A model generated the notes under the pieces. That model worked only from the letters and a program-made list of their open reading frames with translations. It searched no databases and had not been told where the DNA came from. Shown here piece after piece: positions 352 through 63,818 of a stretch of DNA of 64,000 nt (positions within the stretch are counted from its first letter, which is position 1; the number at the start of each line of letters is the position of its first letter). The translations under genes were made by a program, and so were the position numbers. The DNA comes from a virus, in IMG/VR virus record IMGVR_UViG_3300025362_000007, positions 1-64,000 of that record. One strand, 5' to 3'.

Positions 352-3300
352 ATGGAATTTAAGCAGAAGATCAGTGAAGAGATATTTTTTAGAAAATACG
401 CACTACATGGTGAGACAACAGTAGAAGAAGTATTGCAAGGTGTAGCGGAAGAAATTGCTTCCGTAGAAAAAGATAAGGAAAAATGGAAAACAGTATTTTA
501 TGACATAATGGTATCAGGAGAGTTTCTTCCTGCTGGAAGAATATTAGCTAATGCCCGTCCTTTATCTAAAATGAAAAATTACAATAACTGCTTTACTATT
601 GATATAGAAGATTCAATGGAAGGCATTTTTGAGTCATTGAAAGAGGATGCTTTGATTGGTAAAGTTGGAGGAGGAGTTGGATTTAATGCTTCTAAGCTCC
701 GTCCAAAAGGGGCTTACATAAGCAAGGGGGGTGAATCTTCTGGTGTGATGAGTTTCTTAGAAGTTTTTGATACTAGTGCAAAAGCAATCCATACAGGAGG
801 CGGAAGGCGATGTTTACCCGCAGGGACTTCAGTTCATGCAAAAACAGGGTTAAAAAGTATAGAAAATATAGTAATTGAGGATGAAGTTCTTACTTCAGAA
901 GGGTATGAGAAAGTAAGCAATTTTTTTGATCAAGGGGAACAAGAGACTATTGTTATTCATACTAACAACGGTGAATTTGAATGTACAGCTAATCATAAAA
1001 TGGCTGTATTTGATGGACTTTTTTCTTATATTTGGAAAGAAGCGAAAGACTTAAGAAATGGGGATAAACTTGTTTTTGTAGGGAAAACAATAGAAGGACA
1101 ACCCACTGAATTTCCTAAATTTTATTATGAGAAACCAAAACACTCTACTACAACAATAGATATTACTATTCCTACTTTAGACAAGAATAGTGCTTGGTTG
1201 CTTGGACTAATTTTTGGTGATGGATTTGTTTGGACTAATGAAAATAACACGAAGGGTGGGGTTTCTATTGCTTGTGCTAATGTGTATCCAAAAATTATAG
1301 AAAGAGCAGAAAAAGAACTTGAAAAGTTTGGGGCTAATGTTTACGCTAAAGATGGAGATGGTGCTTGTACTAATGTAGTAAGCTATTCCAACCAATTAGG
1401 GATTTTCTTTGGTCAATTTAAAAAAGCAAAAAAAACTCTTATAATCCCCAAATTTATAATGGATGGAACAGTAGAAATTAGAGCAGGATTTATCGCTGGT
1501 GTGTTTGACGCTGATGGTGCTTCTAAAAATAGGCCAATTAGAGTGGTATCTACTGTTTACAAAAAATTTGCAACACAAATTAAATATCTTTTACTTTCTC
1601 TTGGGATTCCTTCTACTGAATATGCTTATGATAGAAGTAAAGATGGGTGGCAAACATTATATAGTATAAATGTTTCTAATGCTGTTGGAGTAAGAAGTTG
1701 GGACAGATTGATTGCCCCCTCTAGTGAAAAATATGTCTCTGGAAGAAAAGATAAAAGGTTTTATCAATCAGGGACTAATGATTTTGGATGGACTAAAGAG
1801 ATGTTTGTGGAAGAAGAAAGAAAAACTAAAAGAAAAGTTTGGTTAAAAAATTCCACAAGTTTAAAGCTCACGTCTTTAGAAAGAGTGATAGGAAGAGAAC
1901 TTCAGTTATACCCAGTAGATTTTCTAGAAATAACTAAAGGAAGAATGGTTCAAACTTATGATATAGAGGTAGAGAATAAACATGAATTTGTAGCAGAAGG
2001 ATTGTTAACTCATAATTCAGCACATATAGTAGTACTAAATGTAGACCATCCAGATATTGAAGAATTTATTCTTTATAAAAAAGGTAGGGAAAATAATGCT
2101 CTTACTCAATTTAATATTAGCGTAGGTATCTCGGATGCTTTTATTTTTGCGGTAGAAAATGATTTAGATTGGAATTTGGTATTTGAAGGTACAGTGTACA
2201 AAACTATAAAAGCTAAAGAATTGTTTGATACTATGACAAAACAAGCATGGTGGTATAATGAACCTGGAGTTTTATTTTTAGATACTGTAGAAGCGGGGAA
2301 TAATGCTCCCCATGCTTTTAAGGTCGATCGCTGTAATCCCTGTGGTGAAATTGTAATGCCAGCTTATAATTTGTGTTGTTTATCTTCTATTAACTTATCT
2401 AAGTTAGTGAAGTATCCATTTACAAATGTAGCTGAGTTTGACTTTGATAGATTTAAAGAAATTATTGAAATTGGGGTTAGGTTCTTAGATAATGTACTCG
2501 ATGCTACCGACTATCCCTTAGATAAAATTGAAGTATTATCTAAAGAATGGAGAAGAATAGGATTGGGTATAACTGGATTGGCTGATGCTTTGCTTAAACT
2601 TAAACTAGCGTATGGTGAAAGAGAAAGTATTGTTATAGTAGATAAAATAGCACACACAATGGCAGAGACAGCATACAATGCTTCTATTGACTTAGCTATA
2701 GAGAAAGGGAGTTTCCCTGCTTTTGATGAAAACATTGGTAATGCTGGCTTTATTCTAAAATTAAGTAAAGAAACTCAAACTAGGATTAAGGTAAATGGAC
2801 TACGTAATATTGGTTTATTAACTATACCCCCAGCAGGCACTATTAGCCTCACATTAGGAAATAATTGTAGTTCGGGAATTGAACCTATATTCTCATTGCA
2901 ATATGATAGAACTGTTCGCCAAAATAATGAAGATACAATCACACAAACTGTGTATGATGATGGATGGTTGGAATATGTGGAATATGCTAATTACAAAGAT
3001 GGTGAACCACTTTCTGAGTATGTAGTAGTATCACATGATGTTTCTATTACTGATGGGATTAAAGTGCAAGCAGCTTTTCAATATTGGATAGATCATAGTA
3101 TAAGCCGAACAATAAACATGCCATTTGAAACTACATTGGAAGATTATAAAGATATTTTTATGTGTGCTTGGAAGATGGGATTAAAAGGTACAACTAGTTT
3201 TCATGAAGGGGCTAGTATGGATGGTATTCTTACCACTAAGAAAACAGAGACTAAGGATGGTACGCTATGGGATAAAATAACCGTACTACCCAATTCTACG

Positions 3301-3804
3301 AAAAGGCCAGAATCATTAGAATGTGATATTTATGAAATGACTGTGAATAAACAGAAAATGTTAGTATTAGTAGGCTTACATAAAGGTAGCCCCTATGAAG
3401 TATTTTTAACAGCCAATAGTGATAATCTAATTGATGTAGAACGAGCCAAGCATGGGGAGATTAGGAAAACAAGTAAGGGAGCGTACAATCTTAGTATTAA
3501 AGGGAAACGAAGTACATTTGTGTTAGAGAATATCACAGCATTGTTTGACGATGATTTTGCTATAATGTGTAGATTAGTTTCTTTGAGTATGCGCCACCAC
3601 ATACCCTTACAGTTTATTATAGATCAACTAAATAAAACTAGTAGGTTTGGTAATTTCTCTAAGATTATGGCTAGAGTATTGAAGAAATATATTAAGGATG
3701 GAGAGAGAGTGATAGCAAAGGAAGTATGCCCCGATTGTAAGGGAGAACTTAGATTTGTGGAAGGTTGTAAAAGTTGCCAAAATTGTGGTTGGAGTAAATG
3801 TTAA
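352..3804 (+). CDS. nrdJ: Class II (B12-dependent) ribonucleotide reductase, intein-containing
   Basis: The precursor is 1150 residues; removing the intein at residues 154-555 leaves 748, normal for NrdJ. The enzyme reduces ribonucleotides to deoxyribonucleotides using adenosylcobalamin. Visible signatures are FLPAGRILANAR near residue 57, the NPCGE loop with downstream LCCLSSINLSKL, GLGITGLADALL, TIPPAGTISLTLGNNCSSGIEP, and the C-terminal zinc-ribbon CPDC...CKSCQNCGWSKC over the last 26 residues, characteristic of the NrdJ family. It heads the replication gene string and would supply dNTPs independently of host regulation. ATG start with an AAGGGG site. No separate beta subunit is seen, as expected for class II. 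Confidence 0.93.
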   Translation: MEFKQKISEEIFFRKYALHGETTVEEVLQGVAEEIASVEKDKEKWKTVFYDIMVSGEFLPAGRILANARPLSKMKNYNNCFTIDIEDSMEGIFESLKEDALIGKVGGGVGFNASKLRPKGAYISKGGESSGVMSFLEVFDTSAKAIHTGGGRRCLPAGTSVHAKTGLKSIENIVIEDEVLTSEGYEKVSNFFDQGEQETIVIHTNNGEFECTANHKMAVFDGLFSYIWKEAKDLRNGDKLVFVGKTIEGQPTEFPKFYYEKPKHSTTTIDITIPTLDKNSAWLLGLIFGDGFVWTNENNTKGGVSIACANVYPKIIERAEKELEKFGANVYAKDGDGACTNVVSYSNQLGIFFGQFKKAKKTLIIPKFIMDGTVEIRAGFIAGVFDADGASKNRPIRVVSTVYKKFATQIKYLLLSLGIPSTEYAYDRSKDGWQTLYSINVSNAVGVRSWDRLIAPSSEKYVSGRKDKRFYQSGTNDFGWTKEMFVEEERKTKRKVWLKNSTSLKLTSLERVIGRELQLYPVDFLEITKGRMVQTYDIEVENKHEFVAEGLLTHNSAHIVVLNVDHPDIEEFILYKKGRENNALTQFNISVGISDAFIFAVENDLDWNLVFEGTVYKTIKAKELFDTMTKQAWWYNEPGVLFLDTVEAGNNAPHAFKVDRCNPCGEIVMPAYNLCCLSSINLSKLVKYPFTNVAEFDFDRFKEIIEIGVRFLDNVLDATDYPLDKIEVLSKEWRRIGLGITGLADALLKLKLAYGERESIVIVDKIAHTMAETAYNASIDLAIEKGSFPAFDENIGNAGFILKLSKETQTRIKVNGLRNIGLLTIPPAGTISLTLGNNCSSGIEPIFSLQYDRTVRQNNEDTITQTVYDDGWLEYVEYANYKDGEPLSEYVVVSHDVSITDGIKVQAAFQYWIDHSISRTINMPFETTLEDYKDIFMCAWKMGLKGTTSFHEGASMDGILTTKKTETKDGTLWDKITVLPNSTKRPESLECDIYEMTVNKQKMLVLVGLHKGSPYEVFLTANSDNLIDVERAKHGEIRKTSKGAYNLSIKGKRSTFVLENITALFDDDFAIMCRLVSLSMRHHIPLQFIIDQLNKTSRFGNFSKIMARVLKKYIKDGERVIAKEVCPDCKGELRFVEGCKSCQNCGWSKC
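811..2016 (+). other. Intein with LAGLIDADG homing endonuclease, inserted in NrdJ
   Basis: Residues 154-555 of the precursor (402 aa). It begins with Cys (CLPAGTSVHAKTG) and ends with LLTHN followed by Ser as the +1 residue. The exteins rejoin as GGRR/SAHIVVLNVDHPD, the uninterrupted RNR sequence. Splicing block B has the TANHK histidine, and block F reads VQTYDIEVENKHEF. The endonuclease has both DOD motifs, LLGLIFGDG (about residue 283) and AGFIAGVFDADG (about 379), each keeping its catalytic aspartate, so it is probably active and mobile. Confidence 0.92.
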
Positions 3805-6282: not shown

Positions 6283-9255
6283 ATGAATGGATTCTTTGAA
6301 ATGAATGATATTGATATTGTTCAACCAACTAAAGCAAAGAAACTAAACCCAAAAGTAAAGAAAGAAATTTACACCTGTGAGGGGTGTGGGTTGTACAAAC
6401 AATGCAATGGTAAATTAGATTATGTGGGGGAAGGTAGAGAAGGAATATTAGTTGTATTAGAACAAGCCACTACCACATCTGACAGATTACAAAATCCGCT
6501 TACAGGAGAAACAAAACACATCATTACAGACTTGTGTAAGAAGGCTCAGCTTAGCCTACAGGACGTTTGGGTGGTGAATAGTATAAGATGCATAGGTAAA
6601 CGCAACAAAGCCACTGTGCCAGCTTGTAGGGGGCTATTAAAGCAAACTATAGCTGAGTTAAAACCTAGAAGTATTATAACCATTGGCCCCCAAGCATTAG
6701 ATGTATTAATAGGAGATATGACTAGTGTCGGGGGAAGTGGCAAAAAGAAAAAAGAGGATAAAGGTATACCAACATATAAGTGGGATGGGAGAGCCATTCC
6801 TTTCCATGAATATATGTGTTATATTTACCCTACATATGGAATAAAGGATCTAATTAAAAGCAGATATAATAAAGTTGTGGAACTAAAAATGACTAGGCAA
6901 TTTATAGCCGCTAAGAAAGGAGATACCTATGTAGATTACACAATAAAACCTATAGAGATACTGACTTCTATACACGACATTAAAAATGTATTACTAACCA
7001 TGGAAACAGAGAAAATAGTGGCATTTGACTATGAGACAACAGGTATTCAACCATACAAGAAAGGGCATGAAATTATTTGCATGAGTGTAGCTACTTCTCG
7101 TAAGGCATATGCGTTTGAAAATACCAAAGCTATACTTCCTTATATACAACATTTTTTAACTAGTGATGTACCTAAAGTAATGCACAATGCAAAATATGAA
7201 TTGATATGGAGTAAAGAACTAGCTAAAGTAGATGTAAATAATGTAATAGCAGATACTATGCTTATTGCTCATAGTATAGATAATACTCCTGGAACTGTAG
7301 GGCTAAAACCTCAGACATTCTTTAACTTTGGTGTTGCTGGTTATGATGATACTATTGCACCACTATTAAAAGCAAAAGATAAATCTGTGCATAGCTTTAA
7401 TTCTTTATATTATATGAAGCAACAAGGAGAACTAACCTATGTAATGGAAGAACTTTTAACCTACTGTGCTTTCGATAGTTTGTATACTATATGGTTGTAT
7501 GAAAAGCAATTAGAACAGATATTACCACACATGCAACAAGGGATTGATATATTCTTAGAAGCAACCAAGGTATTTGCTGAAATAGAATATAGAGGAATGA
7601 GAATTGACATTGATATTGTACGTAAAAACATAAAGTTACTTACACTAAAAATGCAAGAATTAAAAGAACAAATATATGCTACAGAAGAAGTTAAAGCATG
7701 GAACAGAGAAACAGAGTTTAATTTTAATAGTAATAAGGATATGGGAGTATTACTCTATGAAATATTAGGGTATACACCGTATAAGGAAACTTCTAGTGGA
7801 GCAAACAGCACAGACAAGGAAGCATTAGAAAAGATTATAGAAAAAGAAGGAAGTGAGTTCCTTGTATTACTATTGGAATATAAGAAATTAGTAAAAATGA
7901 GGGACACTTATCTAGTAGGATTAGAAAGTGGGACATTAGATGGATATATTAGACCTAGTTTTAATTTGCATACTGTGCAGACTTTCAGAAGTTGCTTGGT
8001 TGGCAACACACCAATATCTACTATTAATGATACTATCCCAATAAAAGACGTTTTTATAGGAACACATGTAATGTGTGTTGATGAGAATAATAAGATTGTG
8101 CATAGAAAAGTTATATGGAGTGGGCTTACGGGACGTAGAAAAGTAATTAAATTAAAACTAATCTACGCAGATTGTGCAGAGAAAACACTGCTTTGCACCG
8201 AAGAACATAAATTAAGGTGTTCAGATGGCACATATATTCAAGCACAAGATTCGTTGGGACACGTTATAAAAGGAGAAACTATAAATTATGCTGTGATGGC
8301 GATAGAAGCATTACCAGATAAAGTAGATGTGTATGATATAGAAGTAGAAGAATTACATAATTTCTTTGCTAATGGCATCTGTGTGCATAATTCATCCTCC
8401 AACCCAAACTTTCAAAACGTGCCAAAAAGAGATAAGTTAGCATCAACAATGATACGTTCTGCTTTCATCCCTGACGAAGGTGCTTTTATAGAGGAACTGG
8501 ACTTTAGTAGTTTAGAGGTAAACATTTCACAGTGTTATAACCAAGATAAAAACTTACTCAAGTATCTAACAGATCCTTCACACAATATGCACACAGATAG
8601 TGCTTGCGACATATTCCTAAGAACCAAAGAAACAATGCTTAAAGAAGAAAGGAGAAATACCAAAGGCGGGTTTGTGTTTGCCCAATCATATGGTTCTACA
8701 TTTAAGAATTGTGCTAAGAATATGTGGGATAATATGGGACAAGTAAGTAAGAAACATTTAGCATCGAAAGGGTGTGTTAACTTAGATAAGTTCACTGATA
8801 TAGTAGAAGAAGCAGAATATCAATTTTGGAATGTACGATTCAAAAGGTGGGGCCAATGGAAGAAAGAGAATTGGAGTGAGTACCTTAAAAAGGGATATAT
8901 AGATACTTATACAGGGTTCAGGTTAAATGCTCTCATGGGCTCTACACAGGCTTCTAATGCTGCAATACAGGGGAGTGCTACACACTGTCTGCTTTTTGTA
9001 CTTATGTTCTTACATATCTATACTAAACAGTTAGGGTTGAAGTCAAGGATTATAGGTCAAATTCATGACTCGATAGTTTTAAATTTATTTCCCGAAGAGG
9101 AAGAGATTATCCATAAAATAGTTAAATTGGGCTTAGATAGATTAAGAGATGAATGGAAATGGGTTACAGTACAATTAACAATGGACTATGAGCAAACTCC
9201 TGTGAATGGAGATTGGAGTCAATTAGAAGAGAAAGGCGAGATAAGGAGTAAATAA
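6283..9255 (+). CDS. Uracil-DNA-glycosylase-like / family A DNA polymerase fusion, intein-containing
   Basis: A 990-residue precursor, 857 after removal of the intein at 571-703. Residues about 25-150 resemble type 4/5 uracil-DNA glycosylase (CEGCGLYKQC cysteine cluster, YVGEGREGILVVLEQA, and IITIGPQAL). Residues about 240-430 are a DnaQ-like 3'-5' exonuclease with FDYETTG (Exo I), MHNAKYE (Exo II) and YCAFDSLYT (Exo III). The polymerase domain has motif A LDFSSLEVN (about 740), motif B RRNTKGGFVFAQSYG (about 790) and motif C QIHDSIV (about 925, HDS in place of the usual HDE). A similar glycosylase-like N-terminus is known in the SPO1 polymerase. This should be the replicative polymerase. Confidence 0.9.
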   Translation: MNGFFEMNDIDIVQPTKAKKLNPKVKKEIYTCEGCGLYKQCNGKLDYVGEGREGILVVLEQATTTSDRLQNPLTGETKHIITDLCKKAQLSLQDVWVVNSIRCIGKRNKATVPACRGLLKQTIAELKPRSIITIGPQALDVLIGDMTSVGGSGKKKKEDKGIPTYKWDGRAIPFHEYMCYIYPTYGIKDLIKSRYNKVVELKMTRQFIAAKKGDTYVDYTIKPIEILTSIHDIKNVLLTMETEKIVAFDYETTGIQPYKKGHEIICMSVATSRKAYAFENTKAILPYIQHFLTSDVPKVMHNAKYELIWSKELAKVDVNNVIADTMLIAHSIDNTPGTVGLKPQTFFNFGVAGYDDTIAPLLKAKDKSVHSFNSLYYMKQQGELTYVMEELLTYCAFDSLYTIWLYEKQLEQILPHMQQGIDIFLEATKVFAEIEYRGMRIDIDIVRKNIKLLTLKMQELKEQIYATEEVKAWNRETEFNFNSNKDMGVLLYEILGYTPYKETSSGANSTDKEALEKIIEKEGSEFLVLLLEYKKLVKMRDTYLVGLESGTLDGYIRPSFNLHTVQTFRSCLVGNTPISTINDTIPIKDVFIGTHVMCVDENNKIVHRKVIWSGLTGRRKVIKLKLIYADCAEKTLLCTEEHKLRCSDGTYIQAQDSLGHVIKGETINYAVMAIEALPDKVDVYDIEVEELHNFFANGICVHNSSSNPNFQNVPKRDKLASTMIRSAFIPDEGAFIEELDFSSLEVNISQCYNQDKNLLKYLTDPSHNMHTDSACDIFLRTKETMLKEERRNTKGGFVFAQSYGSTFKNCAKNMWDNMGQVSKKHLASKGCVNLDKFTDIVEEAEYQFWNVRFKRWGQWKKENWSEYLKKGYIDTYTGFRLNALMGSTQASNAAIQGSATHCLLFVLMFLHIYTKQLGLKSRIIGQIHDSIVLNLFPEEEEIIHKIVKLGLDRLRDEWKWVTVQLTMDYEQTPVNGDWSQLEEKGEIRSK
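7993..8391 (+). other. Mini-intein in the DNA polymerase
   Basis: Residues 571-703 (133 aa), beginning CLVGNTPIST and ending GICVHN with Ser at +1. Block B is TEEHKLR and block F VDVYDIEVEELHNFFANG. No endonuclease domain is present, so this is a splicing-only mini-intein. Splicing joins TFRS to SSSNPNFQNVP, which aligns without gaps to the TGRLSSTDPNLQNIP region of Pol I, confirming both borders. The site is a conserved substrate-binding loop of the polymerase. Confidence 0.9.
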
Positions 9256-15382: not shown

Positions 15383-16639
15383 ATGAACGTACTAAGTTTG
15401 TTCGATGGAATTTCCGTAGGAAGGGTAGCTCTAGAAAAAGCCAACATACAGGTAGATAAATATTACTCTAGTGAGATAGATAAATACGCTATTCAAGTAG
15501 CAGATAATAATTGGTCAAATAATATAAAGCTAGGCGATGTTACTAAGTGGAAAGAATGGGATATTGATTGGGCTAGTATCGATCTACTCATTGGGGGAAG
15601 TCCCTGCACCGGGTTCAGTTTTTCAGGCAAACAATTAAACTTTAATGACCCCCAAAGTAAACTATTCTTTGTGTACGCAGATATACTTCATCATTTACAG
15701 AAAGTAAATCCTAATGTGAAATTCTTATTAGAAAATGTAAAGATGAAAAAAGAATATCAAGATAAAATAAGTGAAATTATAGGAGTAGAACCTGTAGAAA
15801 TAAATAGTGCCCTGCTCTCAGCTCAATCAAGACGCAGGCTATATTGGAAAAACTGGTATGTACCACAACCAGAGGATAAGGGAATTATGTTAAAAGATAT
15901 TGTGCATGAGAATACCTGGACGGACGCAGACAAATCATATTGTATTGATGCTAATTACTGGAAAGGTGGAAATGCCAAACAATATTATGAGAAAGCTAGG
16001 AGGCAGCAAGTATACGATAAGTTGAAAGAGTACATCGTCCCTTTCGACAAAACACTAAAGATACTAGACAAGGAAGTAGAACGTGGTAAAGTGGGGTATT
16101 TTAGAAAAGACTCACAAGCCAACAGAGTATATTATATCCACGATAAAGCAGTTACACTCACAGGAGAAGCTGGTGGTGGGGCAGCTAAGATGGGGCAATA
16201 TTTATTTGCAGACATTACAAAGAATTATTTGCAATATGATTTGTCGGGTAAAGGGCATAAAAGCCAAGACCAAAGGGCATATTATTTAGATGGTAAACAT
16301 GGAACATTGCCTGCTACTGGGGGAGAAACTAAATGTAAGGTATTATTTGGTTGTATCACACCAGACAGAGTAGAAAAACGACAGAACGGGCAACGATTTA
16401 GCGAAGGTAAGAAATTCTACACACTTACAGCACAGGATCAACATGGAATATTGATAGAAGGCTACATACGGAAACTTACTCCAATAGAAGCAGAGAGACT
16501 GCAAACATTGCCAGATAACTATACAGAGGGAATAAGCAATTCGCAACGTTATAAGTGTTTAGGCAACTCGTTTACATCAGATGTGATAGCACACATACTG
16601 AGTAATATAGATAACACAGATAATATTTCATTTTTTTAA
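15383..16639 (+). CDS. DNA (cytosine-5) methyltransferase
   Basis: 418 residues with the full C5 set: motif I LSLFDGISVGRVALE, motif IV GGSPCTGFSFSGKQ (catalytic Cys about residue 74), motif VI FLLENVKM, motif VIII SAQSRRRLYWKNW, and near the end LTPIEAERLQTLPDNYT (motif IX) and LGNSFTSDVI (motif X). The region between about 190 and 360 is the target-recognition domain. No endonuclease partner is adjacent, so it probably protects phage DNA. It is the last gene before the large noncoding RNA. Confidence 0.92.
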   Translation: MNVLSLFDGISVGRVALEKANIQVDKYYSSEIDKYAIQVADNNWSNNIKLGDVTKWKEWDIDWASIDLLIGGSPCTGFSFSGKQLNFNDPQSKLFFVYADILHHLQKVNPNVKFLLENVKMKKEYQDKISEIIGVEPVEINSALLSAQSRRRLYWKNWYVPQPEDKGIMLKDIVHENTWTDADKSYCIDANYWKGGNAKQYYEKARRQQVYDKLKEYIVPFDKTLKILDKEVERGKVGYFRKDSQANRVYYIHDKAVTLTGEAGGGAAKMGQYLFADITKNYLQYDLSGKGHKSQDQRAYYLDGKHGTLPATGGETKCKVLFGCITPDRVEKRQNGQRFSEGKKFYTLTAQDQHGILIEGYIRKLTPIEAERLQTLPDNYTEGISNSQRYKCLGNSFTSDVIAHILSNIDNTDNISFF

Positions 16640-16648
16640 AGAGGTATA

Positions 16649-16677
16649 TTGACACTTTTACAAAAATTGTATATATT
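16649..16677 (+). promoter_or_regulatory. Promoter of the large structured RNA
   Basis: TTGACA at 16649-16654, 17 bp, TATATT at 16672-16677. The predicted start (about 16681-16684) coincides with the 5' strand of the closing stem of the RNA. Confidence 0.75.
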
Positions 16678-16680
16678 AGG

Positions 16681-17155
16681 GATAGATAGGATAACTACCT
16701 ACCTTACCCCTGGGGATGACCATCGTATTGGACGAAGATACTTAAACTCAGGGCAAAGTATCATTACTCTTTAGTTAAGAGCGTCCAGTAGGGTGGTTTT
16801 TCCTTTCTACGGGCAACTGAACCGAAAAGGTTAGTGGTTACGAGTATACCAGCAGTCCATAAAACGTAGGGTAGCTATTAGATAGGAAGCCGTAAATTTG
16901 CCTAACACCATGTCAGAGGAAAAGACCCTAAGCACCTCATATTGAGGGATGCTTGTGAGACGGACAATGGCAGGACTGATGGTTGCTATACATCAGTTGT
17001 CTTGGGCTCGCAGTGCTAATGCTAGTATGAGAGTGTTAGCTTTATCTGTTTACCTATGCTCTAGGCTCGCCTCTATCGGATTGAGGAAAAGGCTTAGGGG
17101 GGGTACTGACAGGTAGCGATAGCTGTATCCACACTTAGGTAACTACCTAACTATC
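16681..17155 (+). ncRNA. Large structured noncoding RNA, about 475 nt
   Basis: A 616-bp stretch without a credible reading frame begins with a consensus promoter. The two ends pair: GATAG 16681-16685 with CTATC 17151-17155, TAGG 16687-16690 with CCTA 17146-17149, and TACCTA 16696-16701 with TAGGTA 17136-17141. Internal hairpins include AAGCA/TGCTT enclosing CCTCA/TGAGG near 16930, and ACTGATG/CATCAGT near 16975-17000. Length, closing stem, phage context and a tRNA array 3 kb downstream recall the ornate phage RNAs ROOL and GOLLD, but I could not match it to either consensus. It could also be a new class. Confidence 0.75.
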
Positions 17156-17207
17156 AGCCTTTAATAATACTACATATATTATATATAAATATTTATAAAA
17201 TTTCCTC

Positions 17208-17236
17208 TTGACAAACTATTTCCCATGCTATACACT
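17208..17236 (+). promoter_or_regulatory. Promoter for the 17256 gene
   Basis: TTGACA at 17208-17213, 17 bp, TACACT at 17231-17236, then AAGGAG and ATG at 17256. An AT-rich tract lies just upstream at 17161-17200. Confidence 0.65.
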
Positions 17237-17255: not shown

Positions 17256-17591
17256 ATGAAAACAATACCAAGAGCAGTAGATTACAATTTACTGTATGCA
17301 ACTGATGATGAGATAAGAGTACTAAGGGACTCTTTAGTTTGTTACGAAAGAAAACTCGATGCAAGGCGGAGAACTGCTTTAGATGAGTTAGCAAGTAGCC
17401 GTGACAAAAACACTGGTGCGGTACAGCCAAGGACAATAGAACTGGTAACTATCATTGAAAAAGCAAAAGCAACACAAAAAGTAGCAGGAAAGTTACGAGA
17501 TACTATACGTGATACATGTTTTGCTAATCGTAGTGCTGATGCTAATTTCGATGCAGTAGACAACTTTGGAATGGAGGTAGCAGATGAATAG
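17256..17591 (+). CDS. Hypothetical helical protein
   Basis: 111 residues from the ATG at 17256, chosen for the promoter and AAGGAG upstream. Mostly helical, basic in the middle (CYERKLDARRRTALDELASS). No family recognised. It overlaps the following gene by 8 bp. Confidence 0.65.
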   Translation: MKTIPRAVDYNLLYATDDEIRVLRDSLVCYERKLDARRRTALDELASSRDKNTGAVQPRTIELVTIIEKAKATQKVAGKLRDTIRDTCFANRSADANFDAVDNFGMEVADE

Positions 17592-18459: not shown

Positions 18460-18815
18460 GTTTTAGAGAACACATGCAAGAAGTACACAAAAGATACACT
18501 AATATGTCTGACGAAGAATTGAGGGCAACTGCTATGCGTAGTGGAAAAACAAACCAAACTTACTTTCAATTTAAAATGGCATCATTTAGTAATGATCCTA
18601 TTGTATTTAATAGAATAGTTATTATAGATAATATCTGTAATATAATGCGTCAGAAAGAAATAACTACAGCACAACTAGCTAAATCGATAAAGATGCACAA
18701 GCTAAAGTTACATAATATTCTTAATAACTATGTTAACTTCACTTTAGACGAGTTAAGTGTAATAACGGAAGCATTAGATAAAAAATTAGTAATGAAATTG
18801 GAAGATAAAAAATGA
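18456..18815 (+). CDS. HTH (XRE-like) DNA-binding protein
   Basis: 119 residues. The C-terminal 55 residues, from MRQKEITTAQLAKSIKMHKL through NYVNFTLDELSVITEALD, follow the five-helix layout of Xre/Cro-type domains: recognition helix in the middle and a conserved LDELSVI late helix. The N-terminal half is charged and helical. It may be a small regulator of phage or host genes, or an antitoxin-like protein; no toxin partner is evident. Confidence 0.65.
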   Translation: MSFREHMQEVHKRYTNMSDEELRATAMRSGKTNQTYFQFKMASFSNDPIVFNRIVIIDNICNIMRQKEITTAQLAKSIKMHKLKLHNILNNYVNFTLDELSVITEALDKKLVMKLEDKK

Positions 18816-19823: not shown

Positions 19824-19961
19824 AAAGCAACAGAGCATTTGAAGAAGTTAAAATAGCACACCTGTGATGCCTCTGATGCAAGCATAATTTCATGGGTTAT
19901 ATAGAATTTGGTAGGGATGTTTTATAAATTCTCACCAATGACTCTTAGCAAAGACTAAGGT

Positions 19962-20085
19962 AAGATGAGTAGTGGAATGGTAAACCACAATCATGGTCGG
20001 TAGAGGAAGATACTGCGAACAACAGCCTCAAAGGAAAAGCCGATTGCCCATGACCTAAAAACAGGTTCAATTCCTGTCCATCTTA
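19962..20085 (+). tRNA. tRNA-like gene with about 50-nt insertion in the anticodon region
   Basis: The acceptor AAGATG pairs with CATCTT (A19968 bulged, then G69-C66 pairing). T8 and A9 precede the D arm GTGG/CCAC, whose loop holds GG. The T arm is perfect (ACAGG, loop TTCAATT, CCTGT, 20061-20077) and the discriminator is A20085. Between D and T arms, however, there are about 71 nt instead of 22. TCATGG (19991-19996) pairs with CCATGA (20048-20053) as an anticodon stem enclosing a structured 51-nt loop containing CGG/CCG, GAGG/CCTC and CTG/CAG helices. No group I core is present. No anticodon can be assigned. Confidence 0.5.
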
Positions 20086-20223
20086 ATTTGTCACAGACGT
20101 GTGGATCGAAACTCTTCGCAAGCCTCTTAATAATGCTCAAATGGCGGAGTGGATGAGGGAACGTTAGCCCCAAACTACAACGGAAAAGGGAGTGTAGTTG
20201 ACTGCTGGGAAAGACTAGCTAAA

Positions 20224-20300
20224 GTAAGAATGTGGTGGACACATGGGGTGAGTTAAAGACTTGGGATTCCCCAACTAGCAACACTAGTATTTCTGCTTAC
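20224..20300 (+). ncRNA. Cloverleaf-like element without a T-loop consensus
   Basis: GTAAG 20224-20228 pairs with CTTAC 20296-20300 and encloses a hairpin ATGTG/CACAT, a GGGG/CCCC arm and ACTAG/CTAGT with a 5-nt loop. The shape recalls a tRNA but TTCRA is absent. It follows the same leader sequence as the tRNA-like genes. May be a decayed tRNA. Confidence 0.25.
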
Positions 20301-20326
20301 TTTACGGACACTGGGAAAGACTAGGT

Positions 20327-20419
20327 AGTATGGTGGCTATCTATGAAAATAAATAGTTACTGGGAGTGGTGGCTTAATACGTAGGGTCACCTGTGTGAGT
20401 TCAAATCTTGCCCATACTA
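20327..20419 (+). tRNA. tRNA-like gene with abnormal D and anticodon arms
   Basis: The acceptor is perfect, AGTATGG with CCATACT, and the T arm is GTGAG, TTCAAAT, CTTGC (with wobbles); discriminator A. The D arm lacks the GG loop. A GGTGG/TCACC stem carries a 14-nt loop in place of the usual 7. The octamer TGGTGGCT occurs twice (20331, 20368), flanking a 29-nt segment. No reliable anticodon. Confidence 0.45.
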
Positions 20420-20455
20420 GGCTCTAGCTTTTAGTTAGAGGGAATTATTGCTGTA

Positions 20456-20628
20456 CCATGTATGTACGTAGGGAGTACTAAACGTTAGGCAATCTATAGC
20501 CTAGAAAAAGAGCGGAGGATGGATAAATGAGACTGCGATTCCATAGGAGTAAATTCTACACCGCAAAGATGTTACGTTAAGTTAATAGGAATATTAACAG
20601 CAGAGGGGTTCAACTCCCCTCACATGGT
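20456..20628 (+). tRNA. Class II tRNA-like gene with about 90-nt insertion in the anticodon loop
   Basis: The acceptor CCATGT pairs with ACATGG. The T arm is perfect (AGGGG, TTCAACT, CCCCT, 20604-20620). A long variable arm GTTAATA/TATTAAC (20581-20598) marks it as class II (Leu/Ser/Tyr type), and a D-arm-like GTAC/GTAC hairpin is present. The anticodon stem appears to be AACGT/ACGTT, 20481-20485 with 20574-20578, with 88 nt between the strands. That insert folds on its own (TAGGC/GCCTA, GCGG/CCGC, ATGG/CCAT). It is too short for a group I intron. Confidence 0.5.
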
Positions 20629-20657
20629 AGAATACGACACTTTGGAAAGACAAAGGT

Positions 20658-20757
20658 AGCATAATGGTGGTGTAGGATAACCACACTGGCCAGTTTGGGG
20701 GTGAAGATATCCACTTCGTAAACAACAGAGAAACAGGTTCAAGTCCTGTCTATGCTA
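20658..20757 (+). tRNA. tRNA-like gene with about 26-nt excess in the anticodon region
   Basis: AGCATA pairs with TATGCT, with an A-C mismatch at position 7-66. The D arm is GTGG/CCAC with GG in the loop. The T arm is perfect (ACAGG, TTCAAGT, CCTGT, 20733-20749). There are about 48 nt between D and T arms, with GTTT/AAAC enclosing a smaller hairpin TGAAG/CTTCG. No canonical anticodon arm can be placed directly after the D arm. Confidence 0.5.
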
Positions 20758-20833
20758 AAGGTCGGATAATTACCGAATGAACTACGGAGATTTGGGGTAG
20801 CCGTAGAGAGATTGACAAAATTGCCCATCCATT

Positions 20834-20907
20834 GCTACAGTAGCTCAGTTGGTCAGAGCACGTGACTTGTAATCTCGGTGTCGTCAGTTCGAATCTGACT
20901 TGTAGCT
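20834..20907 (+). tRNA. tRNA-Thr (anticodon TGT)
   Basis: The cloverleaf is complete: acceptor GCTACAG/TTGTAGC, D arm AGCTC...GAGC, anticodon loop CTTGTAA (TGT), T arm GTCAG, TTCGAAT, CTGAC. One T-T mismatch occurs in the anticodon stem. No encoded CCA. Confidence 0.88.
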
Positions 20908-21896: not shown

Positions 21897-22490
21897 GTGT
21901 TATATTCAATAGGGAAATTTGCAAAACAGATAGGGGTAACAACCGCTACACTACGAAATTGGGATGCTAGTGGGGAACTGACCCCACAAAAAGTTACAAA
22001 TGGTGGTACTCGTTATTATTCAGAACAGCAATTAAATAGTTATATGAACAAAACTATTAGTAGCAAAAAAGAGACATATATATATGCAAGAGTATCAAGT
22101 AATAATCAAAAAAAGGATTTGGTAAATCAAGTAGATTTTTTAAGACAATATTGTAATGCAAAAGGGTACATTGTAAATGTATTAACTGATACAGGTAGTG
22201 GATTAAATTATAAAAGAAAAAATTGGAATGTACTACTTGATTTAGTAATTAAGGGCAGTGTAGATCGAATAGTAATAGCGCACAAAGATAGATTTGTTCG
22301 TTTTGGGTGTGACTGGTTTTTCTCTCTTTGTGAAAAACATGGGTGTATTATAGAGGTAGTAAATAATGACACACTAAGCCCCCAAGAAGAAATGGTTCAA
22401 GATTTAATTTCTATTATTCACGTATTCAGTTGCCGTATATATGGGTTACGAAAGTACAAAGAAAAATTACAGAATGATGAAAGCATATAA
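21897..22490 (+). CDS. tnpA: IS607-family serine transposase TnpA
   Basis: 197 residues. Residues 1-50 form a MerR-type HTH (YSIGKFAKQIGVTTATLRNWDASGELTP). The serine-recombinase domain follows: YIYARVSSNNQKKDL with the catalytic serine, then LTDTGSGLNYKRKNW and VDRIVIAHKDRFVRFG. It catalyses excision and insertion through a circular intermediate. GTG start; the 3' end overlaps tnpB. All expected motifs are intact, so the element may be active. Confidence 0.9.
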   Translation: MLYSIGKFAKQIGVTTATLRNWDASGELTPQKVTNGGTRYYSEQQLNSYMNKTISSKKETYIYARVSSNNQKKDLVNQVDFLRQYCNAKGYIVNVLTDTGSGLNYKRKNWNVLLDLVIKGSVDRIVIAHKDRFVRFGCDWFFSLCEKHGCIIEVVNNDTLSPQEEMVQDLISIIHVFSCRIYGLRKYKEKLQNDESI

Positions 22491-23622
22491 AATAGAAATA
22501 AATCCTACAGAGGAACAGAAAACAAAGATAAACAAGACTATGGGGGTTTGTCGTTTTATTTATAATCTATATATTTCTAAAAATAAGGAAGAGTACGAAA
22601 CTACTAAAAAGTTTATAAGTGCCTATGATTTTAGTAAATATATAAATAATGTTTTTATTAAGGAGAATCCTTCCTATGCTTGGATTAAAGATGTATCAAG
22701 TAAATCAGTAAAACAATCTGTATGTAATGCTGAAAAGGCATTTAAATTATTTTTTAATAAAAAGGCATGCTTTCCTAAATACAAGAAAAAGCATGTATCT
22801 AACATAAAAATGTATTTGCCTAAAAACAATAATACAGATTGGGCAATAGAAAGACATAGGGTAAAAATACCCACATTAGGCTTTGTTAGATTAAAAGAAT
22901 TTGGATATATACCTAAGGATGCTGTTGTATCTAGTGGTGCAGTAAGTAAAGAGGCTGATAAGTATTTTGTTTCTATTTTAGTGAAAGAAGATAGGGTATA
23001 TACTAGCAAGAAAGGGAAACAAGCAATAGGAATAGATTTAGGGATAAAAACGTTTGCTGTATGTTCTGACGGCAGAACTTTTAAGAATATAAACAAGACA
23101 GCTAAGATAAAAGCACTAGAAAAGAAATTAAAAAAAGAACAAAAAGCTTTCAGTAGAAAGTTAGGATCTCGAAAAAAGGAGGAGTCTAATAAAAATTTAG
23201 ATAAAAATAGAATACGAGTACAAAGATTACATAGGCGGTTACGTAATATTCGTCAAGAATATGTAAAATTTGTGGTAAATTCACTTGTGAAAGCCAATAA
23301 TTTACCTGTATACATTTCTATTGAAGATTTGAATGTCAATGGTATGATGAAAAACAGACATTTGAGCAAAGCTATCCAAAAGCAAAATTTTTATTATTTT
23401 AGAACTAAACTTATAGAAAAATGCAACAAATATGATGTTGAGGTAAGGGTTATAGACAGATTCTACCCAAGCAGTAAAACTTGTAGTATTTGCGGAGCAT
23501 ATAAATCTGATTTGAAGTTAAGTGATAGAGTATATAAATGTGGGTGTGGTGGTAGTTTAGATAGGGATTTAAATGCAAGTATAAATATTAGGGATTGCAA
23601 GATATATAAAGTAGCAATTTAA
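22477..23622 (+). CDS. tnpB: TnpB RNA-guided endonuclease
   Basis: 381 residues from the second of two adjacent ATGs, giving the standard MKAYKIEINPTEEQ opening. The RuvC catalytic residues are present in order: GIDLGIKTFAV (Asp), ISIEDLNVNGMM (Glu), and DRDLNASINI (Asp). A zinc-finger CSICG...KCGCGG sits between the last two. TnpB cleaves donor DNA guided by a right-end omegaRNA, promoting transposon retention. The start overlaps tnpA. Confidence 0.9.
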   Translation: MKAYKIEINPTEEQKTKINKTMGVCRFIYNLYISKNKEEYETTKKFISAYDFSKYINNVFIKENPSYAWIKDVSSKSVKQSVCNAEKAFKLFFNKKACFPKYKKKHVSNIKMYLPKNNNTDWAIERHRVKIPTLGFVRLKEFGYIPKDAVVSSGAVSKEADKYFVSILVKEDRVYTSKKGKQAIGIDLGIKTFAVCSDGRTFKNINKTAKIKALEKKLKKEQKAFSRKLGSRKKEESNKNLDKNRIRVQRLHRRLRNIRQEYVKFVVNSLVKANNLPVYISIEDLNVNGMMKNRHLSKAIQKQNFYYFRTKLIEKCNKYDVEVRVIDRFYPSSKTCSICGAYKSDLKLSDRVYKCGCGGSLDRDLNASINIRDCKIYKVAI

Positions 23623-23715
23623 AGCATTTATATATGTGTACTGTGGGCTAACACAGGAATTTACGATTGTGGACATCTACACAAACAATAGTAGCATTAT
23701 GCGAGATTGGGGTGG
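23623..23715 (+). ncRNA. Probable omegaRNA scaffold at the IS607 right end
   Basis: Just after the tnpB stop, CTGTG/CACAG (23641-23656) and TTGTG/CACAA (23667-23684) form two hairpins before the element's estimated right end. Position and hairpins match where TnpB guide RNAs are encoded; the guide would begin at the right border. Confidence 0.5.
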
Positions 23716-23774
23716 TTGAAGCAATAAAACTCAAAAATATATAATTTTATAGATTTTTGTTAGCAGGAATTGGT

Positions 23775-24218: not shown

Positions 24219-24297
24219 GGGGGTAAAATTGGTTTCGACAACTATTAAGTCTTGAAAGAGAAATAGTTGGAAGTGGGTTCGATTCCCACTTGCTCCA
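24219..24297 (+). ncRNA. tmRNA-like RNA lacking the tag reading frame (mini-ssrA)
   Basis: The 5' end, GGGGGTA then AATTGGTTTCGACA, matches the GGGG...GGxTTCGAC signature at the start of bacterial tmRNA, which has no D stem. The 3' end has the T arm GTGGG, TTCGATT, CCCAC and acceptor strand TTGCTCC with discriminator A, including the G3-U70 wobble used by alanyl-tRNA synthetase. Positions 5-68 and 6-67 are mismatched. Between them only a 7-bp stem AACTATT/AATAGTT (24240-24246 with 24262-24268) and a 15-nt loop remain; pseudoknots and the tag frame are absent. No encoded CCA. Confidence 0.7.
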
Positions 24298-24324
24298 AAT
24301 TAGTACATAGAAGGAAGTAGAAAT

Positions 24325-61325: not shown

Positions 61326-63818
61326 TTATGATAATACTGTTCGTATTTTTCGAGAGCGATGCACTTTATGCACTACTCTATATTTGATTTCATCGACAAC
61401 GTGATCCTCTTGTTCTTTAGCTATTTCTTCAATCCTATTCTCATCTCTCATAATTATAGGCAAAGTTCTAGCTACATGCACATTCGTATTGAAAAAAAAG
61501 ATACACTTCCTGTCCATATTAGGATAATTCAAAGAATTTTTCAAGTGAGTCCTCACCATCTCCCATCCTATTACATTAGAACCAGCTCCCTTTGATGCTT
61601 TTGTAAACACATCAAACAGTTTGTATGACTCTTTTCCATAGTAGCCAGCGTTAACTTCTTGTGCAATAGACATATATGAAGAATCATATTTTGGATTCTT
61701 ATTCCATAACTGTGTATCGGCTGGCCCAGGATATACTTTGTGGATATTTTTAAATACAGGGTTGCTCTCTTCCATCTGCTTAACTCCGTGTCCTACTTCA
61801 TATCCAGTGAGGCCACACCCTTCATTCTCTTCACCATTCCAACCATACCATTCTGCTATTCTAAATAAAATACCAGCAGGATATGTGTATTTACTACCAT
61901 CTTTCAGGGTAACTTCTGTACCATCACTTTCTGCGTACCAACCAATAGAGAACGGAGCAGAAGAACCCCAATCGAGTGCTCTATCAACATACCAAGAAGA
62001 AGGTATTTCAAAAGGCTCAATCATGTGTACTTTTTCGTCCCACACATCATCAAACATCCCCCCTGCTATAGCATCCCAATCTCCTTCTAATAGCATTTTA
62101 GCTGTAGCAGCATTTCCAACACCCATAACTCTGCCTTCATACTCTTCTTTGTCAATAGAAGGATTATCGTCTAATGTAGCAGGAATAAATTGTCGCAACA
62201 TACCCCCCATAGTCTTAGGCATCTTTACAATAGTAAGTGGGGGAGCTACTTTTACAAACTCTTTTCTTATTTTTGAATGAGATATACCTCCTGGGTTAGT
62301 GCCTAAAAGTATACGGGGAAAGAAATTCTCCCCCCATTTTTGTCTAAAAGCCAAAGGTGGTTGCCATGTTTTAGGTGTACGAACACGAGTACGGAGATAT
62401 GTATATTTACTCCACGTAAAGTGTGTGGCCTCATCTATCATCAAAGCATCCATCTCAGCCCCTTGATACTTGTACTTATCTTTCTCATACAAACAGTGAC
62501 AGAGGTGAATAATACTTCCTCCCATATAGCCCCCACGAGGCCCATTCTTAAACTGAATCTGATAGTCAGAGTTATTTATCTTTACAAATTTATCATCCAC
62601 AGCATCACCCAGTAGTTCATGGAATGACCCTTTACCTGTCATATGATTATCTTCCAATTCTTTACGAGTTAAACGAAACAAATATATTTGTGCTCCTGGA
62701 GCTTCCATAGCCCATGTAATTGCAGCCACACGCATAAGAAAACTATTGTGTGTGGGAACTAATTCCTTACCTGCTAAGTATGTATGATTAGGGCTATCTA
62801 CCTGAATACACTGCTTTGCTCTCGCTGGTATTCTGCGTATAGCCTTAATATAGTATCTACTATTTTTTTCTGTACGCTTCTTCTCAGGTAGTTTGTCTTG
62901 CTCTAATTTTATTCTAGAAAATTCTTTTGTGCCCTCAAATCTTACCCGTACTTCATACTCCCCTTTGTAGTTATTGAACTCAAACTCATTATGTGAACTT
63001 GTAATAGCACTACGTATCCCTAAAGAACGAACTAGTTCAACTATATCTTCGGCAAACTTCTGTGTTCTACAGTGGATACCTATTCTACTTTGTTTTAATT
63101 CAGGGCTACCTGATATATCTATAATCCCTTGAAGAACAGAAAGCCTTTGTTCTCTATCCCCATACTTATACATATCGGGAATTACTTTGTTATCTTCGGA
63201 CAAACCTACTAAAGCTATGTGCTCATAGAAGTCCTTTGGGTTGGTATATTTCCCACCACAATAATCAGCTAATTGCCAAGTACTTCCCATAGCACTTGCT
63301 TGTTGTACCATGAGATCCTTTTTACGTTTTTTTAAAAACCCACCATTACAAAACATCCCTACTAAGTAGGGGTCAACTGGAAAATCTTTTGTTGGAAAAT
63401 TTAAAAAAGGTGCTCCCTTAACTATAAACTTACTTCTATGAGTATCTGTAAACAACCCTTCTCTAAGTAACTGCTCTGTGGTCAATAAAGCATTACGCCT
63501 TCCTAACCGTCTTTCAACAAGCCACCCATGCCTGCCATCGCATACTAACGTAGTACCACGATTAAATTCTACCTCATAAGTTTTGGATTTTGTATTTATA
63601 GCACTTTTTGCTAGTACATTGCATAAATTACCATTTCCCCCAAATACTTTATCCCCTACTTCTAAAGTTTCCATTGTTTTCCAACAAGTATCAGTGAGTA
63701 TTGGTGTGTGTATGTCTAATGCTTTTCCCCCACCTACAGCCCCACCATACAATATTTCATTCGCAGGGGAGGTAAGTGCAATTATTTGCTTGGGGTGAAG
63801 TTCAATATTTAGTGCCAT
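61326..63818 (-). CDS. terL: Terminase large subunit, intein-containing
   Basis: 830-residue precursor, 504 after removal of the intein at 33-358. The rejoined N-terminus reads ILYGGAVGGGKSFLMRV, a complete Walker A. Walker B is DALMIDEATHF. The C-terminal RNase-H-like nuclease shows VDRALDWGSSAPFSIGWYAE (first Asp) and VYPGPADTQLW (second), with a late acidic residue expected near the DRKCIFFF region. It powers DNA packaging and cuts concatemers. Packaging depends on splicing, since the intein interrupts the ATP-binding loop. Confidence 0.92.
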   Translation of the reverse strand: MALNIELHPKQIIALTSPANEILYGGAVGGGKALDIHTPILTDTCWKTMETLEVGDKVFGGNGNLCNVLAKSAINTKSKTYEVEFNRGTTLVCDGRHGWLVERRLGRRNALLTTEQLLREGLFTDTHRSKFIVKGAPFLNFPTKDFPVDPYLVGMFCNGGFLKKRKKDLMVQQASAMGSTWQLADYCGGKYTNPKDFYEHIALVGLSEDNKVIPDMYKYGDREQRLSVLQGIIDISGSPELKQSRIGIHCRTQKFAEDIVELVRSLGIRSAITSSHNEFEFNNYKGEYEVRVRFEGTKEFSRIKLEQDKLPEKKRTEKNSRYYIKAIRRIPARAKQCIQVDSPNHTYLAGKELVPTHNSFLMRVAAITWAMEAPGAQIYLFRLTRKELEDNHMTGKGSFHELLGDAVDDKFVKINNSDYQIQFKNGPRGGYMGGSIIHLCHCLYEKDKYKYQGAEMDALMIDEATHFTWSKYTYLRTRVRTPKTWQPPLAFRQKWGENFFPRILLGTNPGGISHSKIRKEFVKVAPPLTIVKMPKTMGGMLRQFIPATLDDNPSIDKEEYEGRVMGVGNAATAKMLLEGDWDAIAGGMFDDVWDEKVHMIEPFEIPSSWYVDRALDWGSSAPFSIGWYAESDGTEVTLKDGSKYTYPAGILFRIAEWYGWNGEENEGCGLTGYEVGHGVKQMEESNPVFKNIHKVYPGPADTQLWNKNPKYDSSYMSIAQEVNAGYYGKESYKLFDVFTKASKGAGSNVIGWEMVRTHLKNSLNYPNMDRKCIFFFNTNVHVARTLPIIMRDENRIEEIAKEQEDHVVDEIKYRVVHKVHRSRKIRTVLS
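62745..63722 (-). other. Class 3-like intein in TerL Walker A with degenerate endonuclease
   Basis: Residues 33-358 (326 aa), ALDIHTPILT to LVPTHN, with Ser at +1. Residue 1 is Ala rather than Cys or Ser. The W-C-T set of class 3 inteins can be read: HGWLV in block B, RAKQCIQVDSPNHTYL in block F, and VPTHN in block G. LAGLIDADG-like helices are YLVGMFCNGGF and VLQGIIDISGS; the first lacks its catalytic Asp (CNGG for GDG), so the endonuclease is probably inactive. Confidence 0.85.

Follow-up and report, generated by a model that had tools for sequence, protein, structure and literature searches.

What does a phage transcribe when a strong promoter opens onto DNA in which no gene is apparent? 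The question is raised by a gap in the IMG/VR record IMGVR_UViG_3300025362_000007 (70,851 bases), of which bases 1–64000, the whole stretch of 64,000 nucleotides analyzed here, are called the window. Phage capsid and terminase genes in the record mark it as a virus of bacteria. Six internal ORF-free gaps in the record exceed 250 nt, and one of these, the ORF-poor gap of 568 nt at 16640–17207, had been predicted to encode a large structured RNA. We conclude that this gap very probably contains a non-coding, structured RNA gene of the phage.

The Gap, Its Promoter, and Its Predicted Fold

The gap is preceded by a DNA methyltransferase gene (PHROG 116; 15383–16639, plus strand) that ends directly before the −35 box of a sigma-70-type promoter on the same strand, TTGACA-17-TATATT (16649–16677), which opens the gap and scores 11/12. 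With both strands of the record counted, it is one of only 10 sites that score at least 11/12, which confirms the strong promoter of the original prediction. The heptamer AGAGGTA (16640–16646, plus strand) abuts the −35 box upstream, and the homolog described below also has AGAGGTA upstream of its −35 box; we treat this as weak evidence because the motif is common elsewhere in both genomes. A second promoter on the plus strand, TTGACA-17-TACACT (17208–17236, 10/12), belongs to the next gene, an ORF that starts from the ATG at 17256, and the possession by that gene of its own promoter suggests that the RNA forms a transcription unit of its own. We place the RNA at about 16685–17160 on the plus strand, from some 7 nt downstream of the −10 box to the last hairpin followed by CUAUC; a search near the 3′ end revealed no intrinsic terminator, so this end and the length of 475 nt are estimates. 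The first tRNA called by ARAGORN lies at 20834, 3.7 kb downstream of the RNA on the same strand, and tRNA-like sequences begin at about 19961.

The longest ORFs inside the gap encode 41 amino acids, beginning within the promoter, and 55 amino acids (16949–17116). Stops are numerous in all three frames of both the window RNA and its homolog, and the predicted lack of a reading frame is upheld by these short maximal ORFs and by frames that are interrupted throughout. The fold of 16685–17170 has an energy of −156.1 kcal/mol (z −2.67), with 1 of 100 dinucleotide shuffles equally good. For 16685–17160 the energy is −155.3 kcal/mol, and none of 352 segments of 476 nt sampled from both strands of the record (mean −92.8, sd 16.2) is as stable, which bears out the claim that the RNA is richly folded. 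Its GC content is 45.4% against 35.8% for the record, a level attained by 9 of 1408 segments, all within the tRNA array.

The 5′ and 3′ ends had been proposed to pair in three consecutive helices. The pairing itself stands in the window RNA, where 16685–16710 finds its partners in 17100–17155 (plus strand) to form a duplex of −26.4 kcal/mol that 5 of 1000 shuffles reach; however, it consists of five short helices (4+5+3+6+6 bp) in the minimum free energy structure rather than three, and it is not conserved in the homolog, where the duplex has −9.6 kcal/mol and 588 of 1000 shuffles are equally good. The end-to-end pairing may thus be a local feature, as it is not above chance in the homolog. 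The minimum free energy structure also lacks the conserved central helix described in the next section (16867–16872/16925–16930), which costs 4.3 kcal/mol to force; given that this core helix is absent, the drawing is partly wrong, its middle being misdrawn by energy folding alone.

A Homolog with a Shared Architecture

Eight loci from related phages were found, four of them with a capsid protein 55–64% identical to that of the window phage. One related record, G005 (90,240 bases), is broadly syntenic with the window phage, and comparison of the ORF-free gaps of related records located a homolog of about 450 nt at G005:29536–29086 (minus strand), within the ORF-free gap G005:29086–29576. This homolog, which BLAST of the RNA against 15 related records had missed, aligns on the expected strand and has a promoter, TTGATG-17-TATAGT, in the same place as in the window. 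The stretch G005:29141–29660 (minus strand) ranks first of 1382 overlapping G005 segments in three scoring schemes; in the middle scheme the homolog scores 225 against a mean of 97 (sd 19), and the next independent segment scores 175. With the promoter included, the observed alignment score of 379 exceeds the maximum of 367 in 500 dinucleotide shuffles of the G005 stretch, and when the promoter is left out 1 of 500 such shuffles attains the observed score. The homolog is neither GC-rich (34.4%, a level reached by 1405 of 1796 G005 segments) nor exceptionally stable (35 of 450 G005 segments fold equally well). Each of the two phages has tRNAs downstream of the RNA and on its strand, about 6 kb away in G005.

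The two RNAs have in common a core that reads UAGGGU-AG-n2-3-AUUAGA ... CAGArGAAAA-ACCCUA, and around it a series of stems that can be followed along the plus strand of the window. The octamer UAACUACC (16692–16699), kept in both homologs, precedes a 5′ domain (16713–16803) whose long stem (16713–16734/16782–16803) has 19 shared base pairs, 11 of them changed on both sides, and carries two hairpins (16737–16743/16756–16762 and 16769–16771/16777–16779); in the first of these, five of seven pairs are changed on both sides. After an invariant GUUACGA (16837–16843) comes the core (16867–16930), in which the invariant helix UAGGGU/ACCCUA (16867–16872/16925–16930) surrounds AUUAGA (16877–16882), a covarying 4-bp hairpin (16883–16886/16901–16904), and CAGARGAAAA (16914–16923). 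Because it never varies, the core helix itself is backed by conservation only. Three hairpins follow, with two-sided changes in five of nine pairs (16931–16953), five of six pairs (16976–16996), and two of seven pairs (17015–17040, GCUAAUG/UGUUAGC), and then a 3′ stem (17051–17105) in which 9 of 14 shared base pairs are two-sided. The two RNAs have this arrangement of hairpins in common, with many two-sided changes in the pairs.

These changes are drawn from two sequences, with which no formal covariation test is possible, and the pair counts exclude MAFFT alignments of the two RNAs, which were wrong by eye. We used a custom-written program for simultaneous folding and alignment, with 32 shuffles of the homolog that keep the conserved anchors. 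The anchored comparison gave 99 shared pairs, 57 of them two-sided, against shuffle means of 69 and 38 and maxima of 99 and 51. The shared-structure score was 61405 against 54453 ± 1480 for the 32 shuffles, and it exceeds the best of them (57704) by 2.5 standard deviations of the shuffles. When no anchors were used, the score of the real pair was above those of all 20 shuffles and of all 10 other G005 segments, the margin over the best shuffle being small (17343 against 16950), and one shuffle had 76 two-sided pairs against 65 for the real pair. Simultaneous folding and alignment gives the best support to the 5′ arm, its first hairpin, and the 3′ stem.

When only the window sequence was used to build a covariance model of the core, the homolog came out as the best match in 392 kb, at full length (a modest 12.3 bits, E 0.4) and in the same register as the alignment made by eye. 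A second match in G010 follows closely (11.3 bits); we attribute it to chance, the core helix being broken there. In the alignment made by this model pairing extends to 98% of cells, and two-sided changes affect 13 of the 25 pairs, counts that lean towards the core pairing because this pairing was chosen after both sequences had been seen; none of 500 column shuffles is as high, and controls slid out of register give 0–2. Compensatory base-pair changes, by which a structured non-coding RNA gene may be tested, were accordingly found, in a comparison of two sequences only: the one homolog has many pairs changed on both sides, and a lack of covarying pairs had been named as grounds for abandoning the original prediction.

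Searches for Further Members and Other RNAs Nearby

At gathering score, the window RNA matched none of the 4227 families of Rfam 15 (introns, RNase P, tmRNA, HEARO, riboswitches, and others). With E values up to 10, nothing credible was found for it on either strand, the best hit having 15.2 bits against a cut-off of 45, and the same 4227 models gave no credible match to the G005 homolog. The covariance search against Rfam that the original prediction had proposed thus returns no family, ROOL and GOLLD included, and the suggested membership in ROOL or GOLLD is not supported, given that neither the RNA nor its homolog matches the Rfam models of these two classes. A likeness of GAGGAAAAGACCC to ribosomal and RNase P sequence was also weighed and then dropped, as no Rfam model matched.

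Neither BLAST nor motif patterns extended the family. Against 50,697 phage records, BLAST returned 6 records for the window RNA and 14 for the homolog, all of them short chance matches, and an exact 20-mer scan for more members returned none. An exact pattern of the core with both strands, run on IMG/VR contigs, matched 16 stretches, among which only that in G005 is real. Fourteen stretches were compared with their own shuffles, and none exceeded them except L111, which sits in ORFs and was rejected; L114 was rejected because its match agrees in length and spacing with the L105 group. With a looser form of the core, the pattern matched 69 stretches in viral contigs of IMG/VR, only G005 being real; a related pattern run on one genome each for 84,980 species matched 20 stretches in genome contigs, none of them a real member; and the loosest pattern matched at least 119 stretches in IMG/VR contigs, with only G005 real among the matches listed. 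Two stretches found with the loosest pattern have the 6-bp helix and no alignment score. In 4.19 Mb of fetched sequence, the full core (helix and both loop motifs, with no mismatch) occurs only in the two RNAs.

A covariance model built from both sequences was run on 90 viral records (47 + 43; 33 of 80 portal loci and 43 of 80 methyltransferase loci were supplied for this set). It returned both RNAs and four weak places, and only the two RNAs are credible: the best weak place (G051, E 0.028) lies inside a protein gene and was rejected, and the other three cover less than half the model. In a third relative, G009 (85 kb), no copy was seen by segment comparison, the core pattern, or the two-sequence model, and this phage seems to be without the RNA. 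Because BLAST, patterns, and covariance model found no further members, we regard the family as either rare or diverging fast.

The surroundings of the tRNA genes hold several other unusual RNAs. At 24220–24298 (plus strand), a 79-nt match to the tmRNA family covers the tRNA-like domain only, with the D-loop GGUUUCGAC, a T-arm, and an acceptor GGGGUAA/UUGCUCC that has a G3-U70-type pair; only 11 nt stand where the message and pseudoknot domain would take up about 304 nt, and this RNA is possibly a decoy or a message-less tmRNA. A sequence at about G005:23632–23530 (minus strand) is similar by eye to the tmRNA tRNA-like domain, and Rfam makes no call there. Between 19961 and 20830, tRNA-like genes are interrupted by insertions and are missed in ordinary searches. 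One of them, at 19961–20086, is detected by ARAGORN when introns are allowed and has a 46-nt insert in the anticodon loop; G009:17589–17746 holds a similar interrupted gene. T-arms at 20395, 20604, and 20733 are accompanied by acceptor-like ends with no ordinary tRNA called. Lying between the tRNA-like genes, 20114–20150 (plus strand) matches the abiF RNA (46.6 bits against a cut-off of 37) and could be an RNA antitoxin mimic; an AbiF model matched none of ten neighboring proteins. Short hairpins with (G/C)AAAGA loops and differing stems were seen by eye directly before tRNA or tRNA-like genes; the window has four such hairpins (19930–20660) and G009 one (18550–18570). A 74-nt sequence at 20753–20826, inside the tRNA arrays of both phages, is 88% identical to G005:22998–22925, with no tRNA called there. 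The G005 tRNAs are preceded by an RNA-rich stretch in which L099:3423–3508 (minus strand; equivalent to G005:23423–23508) has a sub-threshold match to the drum RNA (31.0 bits against a cut-off of 43, E 0.00095).

Mobile and protein-splicing elements occur in the window as well. An IS607-type element (21897–23727, plus strand) consists of a recombinase-like ORF (by eye), TnpB, and a RAGATH-18 RNA 44 nt downstream; PMC11061315 describes such an arrangement for TnpB guide RNAs. Intein domains were found among 352–3804, 6283–9255, and 61326–63818, in ribonucleotide reductase (with a homing endonuclease) and DNA polymerase, and the terminase appears by eye to be split by an intein with no Pfam match.

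Possible Roles and Known Large RNAs

The main rival to a structural role, because the phage carries both the abiF RNA match and the message-less tmRNA tRNA-like domain, is that the RNA acts in counter-defense as a decoy, by imitating or tying up either a host RNA or that part of a defense system which binds RNA. Phage-borne RNA antitoxin mimics provide a precedent, and the small RNAs at 20114–20150 and 24220–24298 are likewise out of place in this phage, the former with no AbiF homolog in the ten neighboring proteins scanned. We nevertheless consider a decoy unlikely, given that neither the RNA of the gap nor its homolog resembles any Rfam family and that a large architecture kept across two diverged phages exceeds what a decoy would need. 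It is quite unlikely that the RNA is instead a long cis-acting leader or attenuator of the next gene. The G005 homolog does extend to the start codon of the following gene (G005:28204–29085, toprim-like by eye) with no promoter scoring at least 11/12 between them; however, the next gene in the window has the promoter at 17208–17236, and the two downstream genes are unrelated, that of G005 being absent from the blastp list.

The several downstream tRNA-like genes with insertions raise the idea of a ribozyme or guide that makes or processes these tRNAs. We judge this very unlikely: no sequence link was seen between the RNA and the tRNA-like genes, no ribozyme family matched, and G009 has an interrupted tRNA-like gene yet no copy of the RNA. 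It is extremely improbable that the gap holds no RNA gene at all and is instead coding sequence, short or degenerate, or an AT-rich spacer whose fold is due to chance. The 55-residue ORF is what such a reading can point to, whereas the frames of the homolog are interrupted throughout and conservation follows base pairs and loops rather than codons.

The sequences themselves establish a promoter, a lack of a reading frame, a homolog, a shared fold with two-sided changes, and invariant unpaired stretches. Given probable separate transcription, an architecture kept over sequence, and invariant, unpaired, purine-rich AUUAGA, CAGArGAAAA, and GUUACGA beside an invariant helix, we favor an RNA that folds, acts in trans, and docks through a conserved surface, and the most likely function appears to be that of a trans-acting structural RNA; here we infer a structural or assembling role from a structured RNA. 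The phage would transcribe the RNA from its own host-type promoter to act in trans. The transcript would fold into a compact core, with the AUUAGA and CAGArGAAAA strands facing the UAGGGU/ACCCUA helix, flanked by a long 5′ three-way-junction arm and by the 3′ arm. The invariant purine-rich loops may serve as docking sites. These would make tertiary contacts inside one RNA copy or from copy to copy, as in ornate phage RNAs, or would bind one partner (the ribosome, a protein, or an RNA).

Taken whole, the proposal of a stand-alone, trans-acting phage RNA gene of about 475 nt with a compact docking core, the founder of a new family of two members, is offered tentatively, at a little short of an even chance. 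That it is a trans-acting structural RNA working like ROOL and GOLLD is somewhat less likely. A more doubtful extension is that the RNA represents a new ornate class in phages, with no sequence relationship to ROOL, GOLLD, and OLE, whose members fold by themselves and use the invariant purine-rich core to assemble or dock. The original suggestion of a new class of large phage non-coding RNA finds support, with two members only. With no fit to Rfam, the RNA appears to be the first example seen of a new family. The literature searched yielded OLE, ROOL, and GOLLD as ornate RNAs together with earlier surveys of structured RNAs, and an unnamed motif of this kind in the supplements of those surveys is possible. 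If the more doubtful extension is true, large structural RNAs have originated in phages on more occasions than can be told from the known classes. Another independent class, with a short invariant core and a size below that of GOLLD, would demonstrate the repeated origin of such RNAs and would offer a compact, manageable subject for probing and cryo-EM. The core motif, together with its helix, is defined precisely enough to be used in searching for more members.

RNA-based counter-defense elements of phages mimic a known host RNA. The window RNA is like them in being a non-coding RNA gene in a phage and differs in that Rfam recognized no mimicked RNA in it. Passages of PMC12286853 describe only a few classes of large structured RNA in phages, which form RNA-only cages of unknown function. 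The same passages give a 577-nt member for OLE, found mainly in extremophilic bacteria; our RNA is similar in size class and rich folding, occurs in a phage instead, and has no match in Rfam. As described there, GOLLD RNAs are large, ornate, phage-borne, and near tRNAs, traits in which the window RNA is like them; however, many GOLLD members exceed 800 nt, in contrast to about 475 nt here, about 450 nt in the homolog, and an ORF-free gap of 568 nt, and Rfam finds no match. ROOL, by the account of these passages a large structured phage RNA of unknown function that is often near tRNA islands, assembles from several copies into a closed cage. Our RNA has no match to the Rfam ROOL model; the two are alike in being large, structured, phage-borne, and close to tRNA genes, which lie 3.7 kb downstream in the window and about 6 kb downstream of the homolog.
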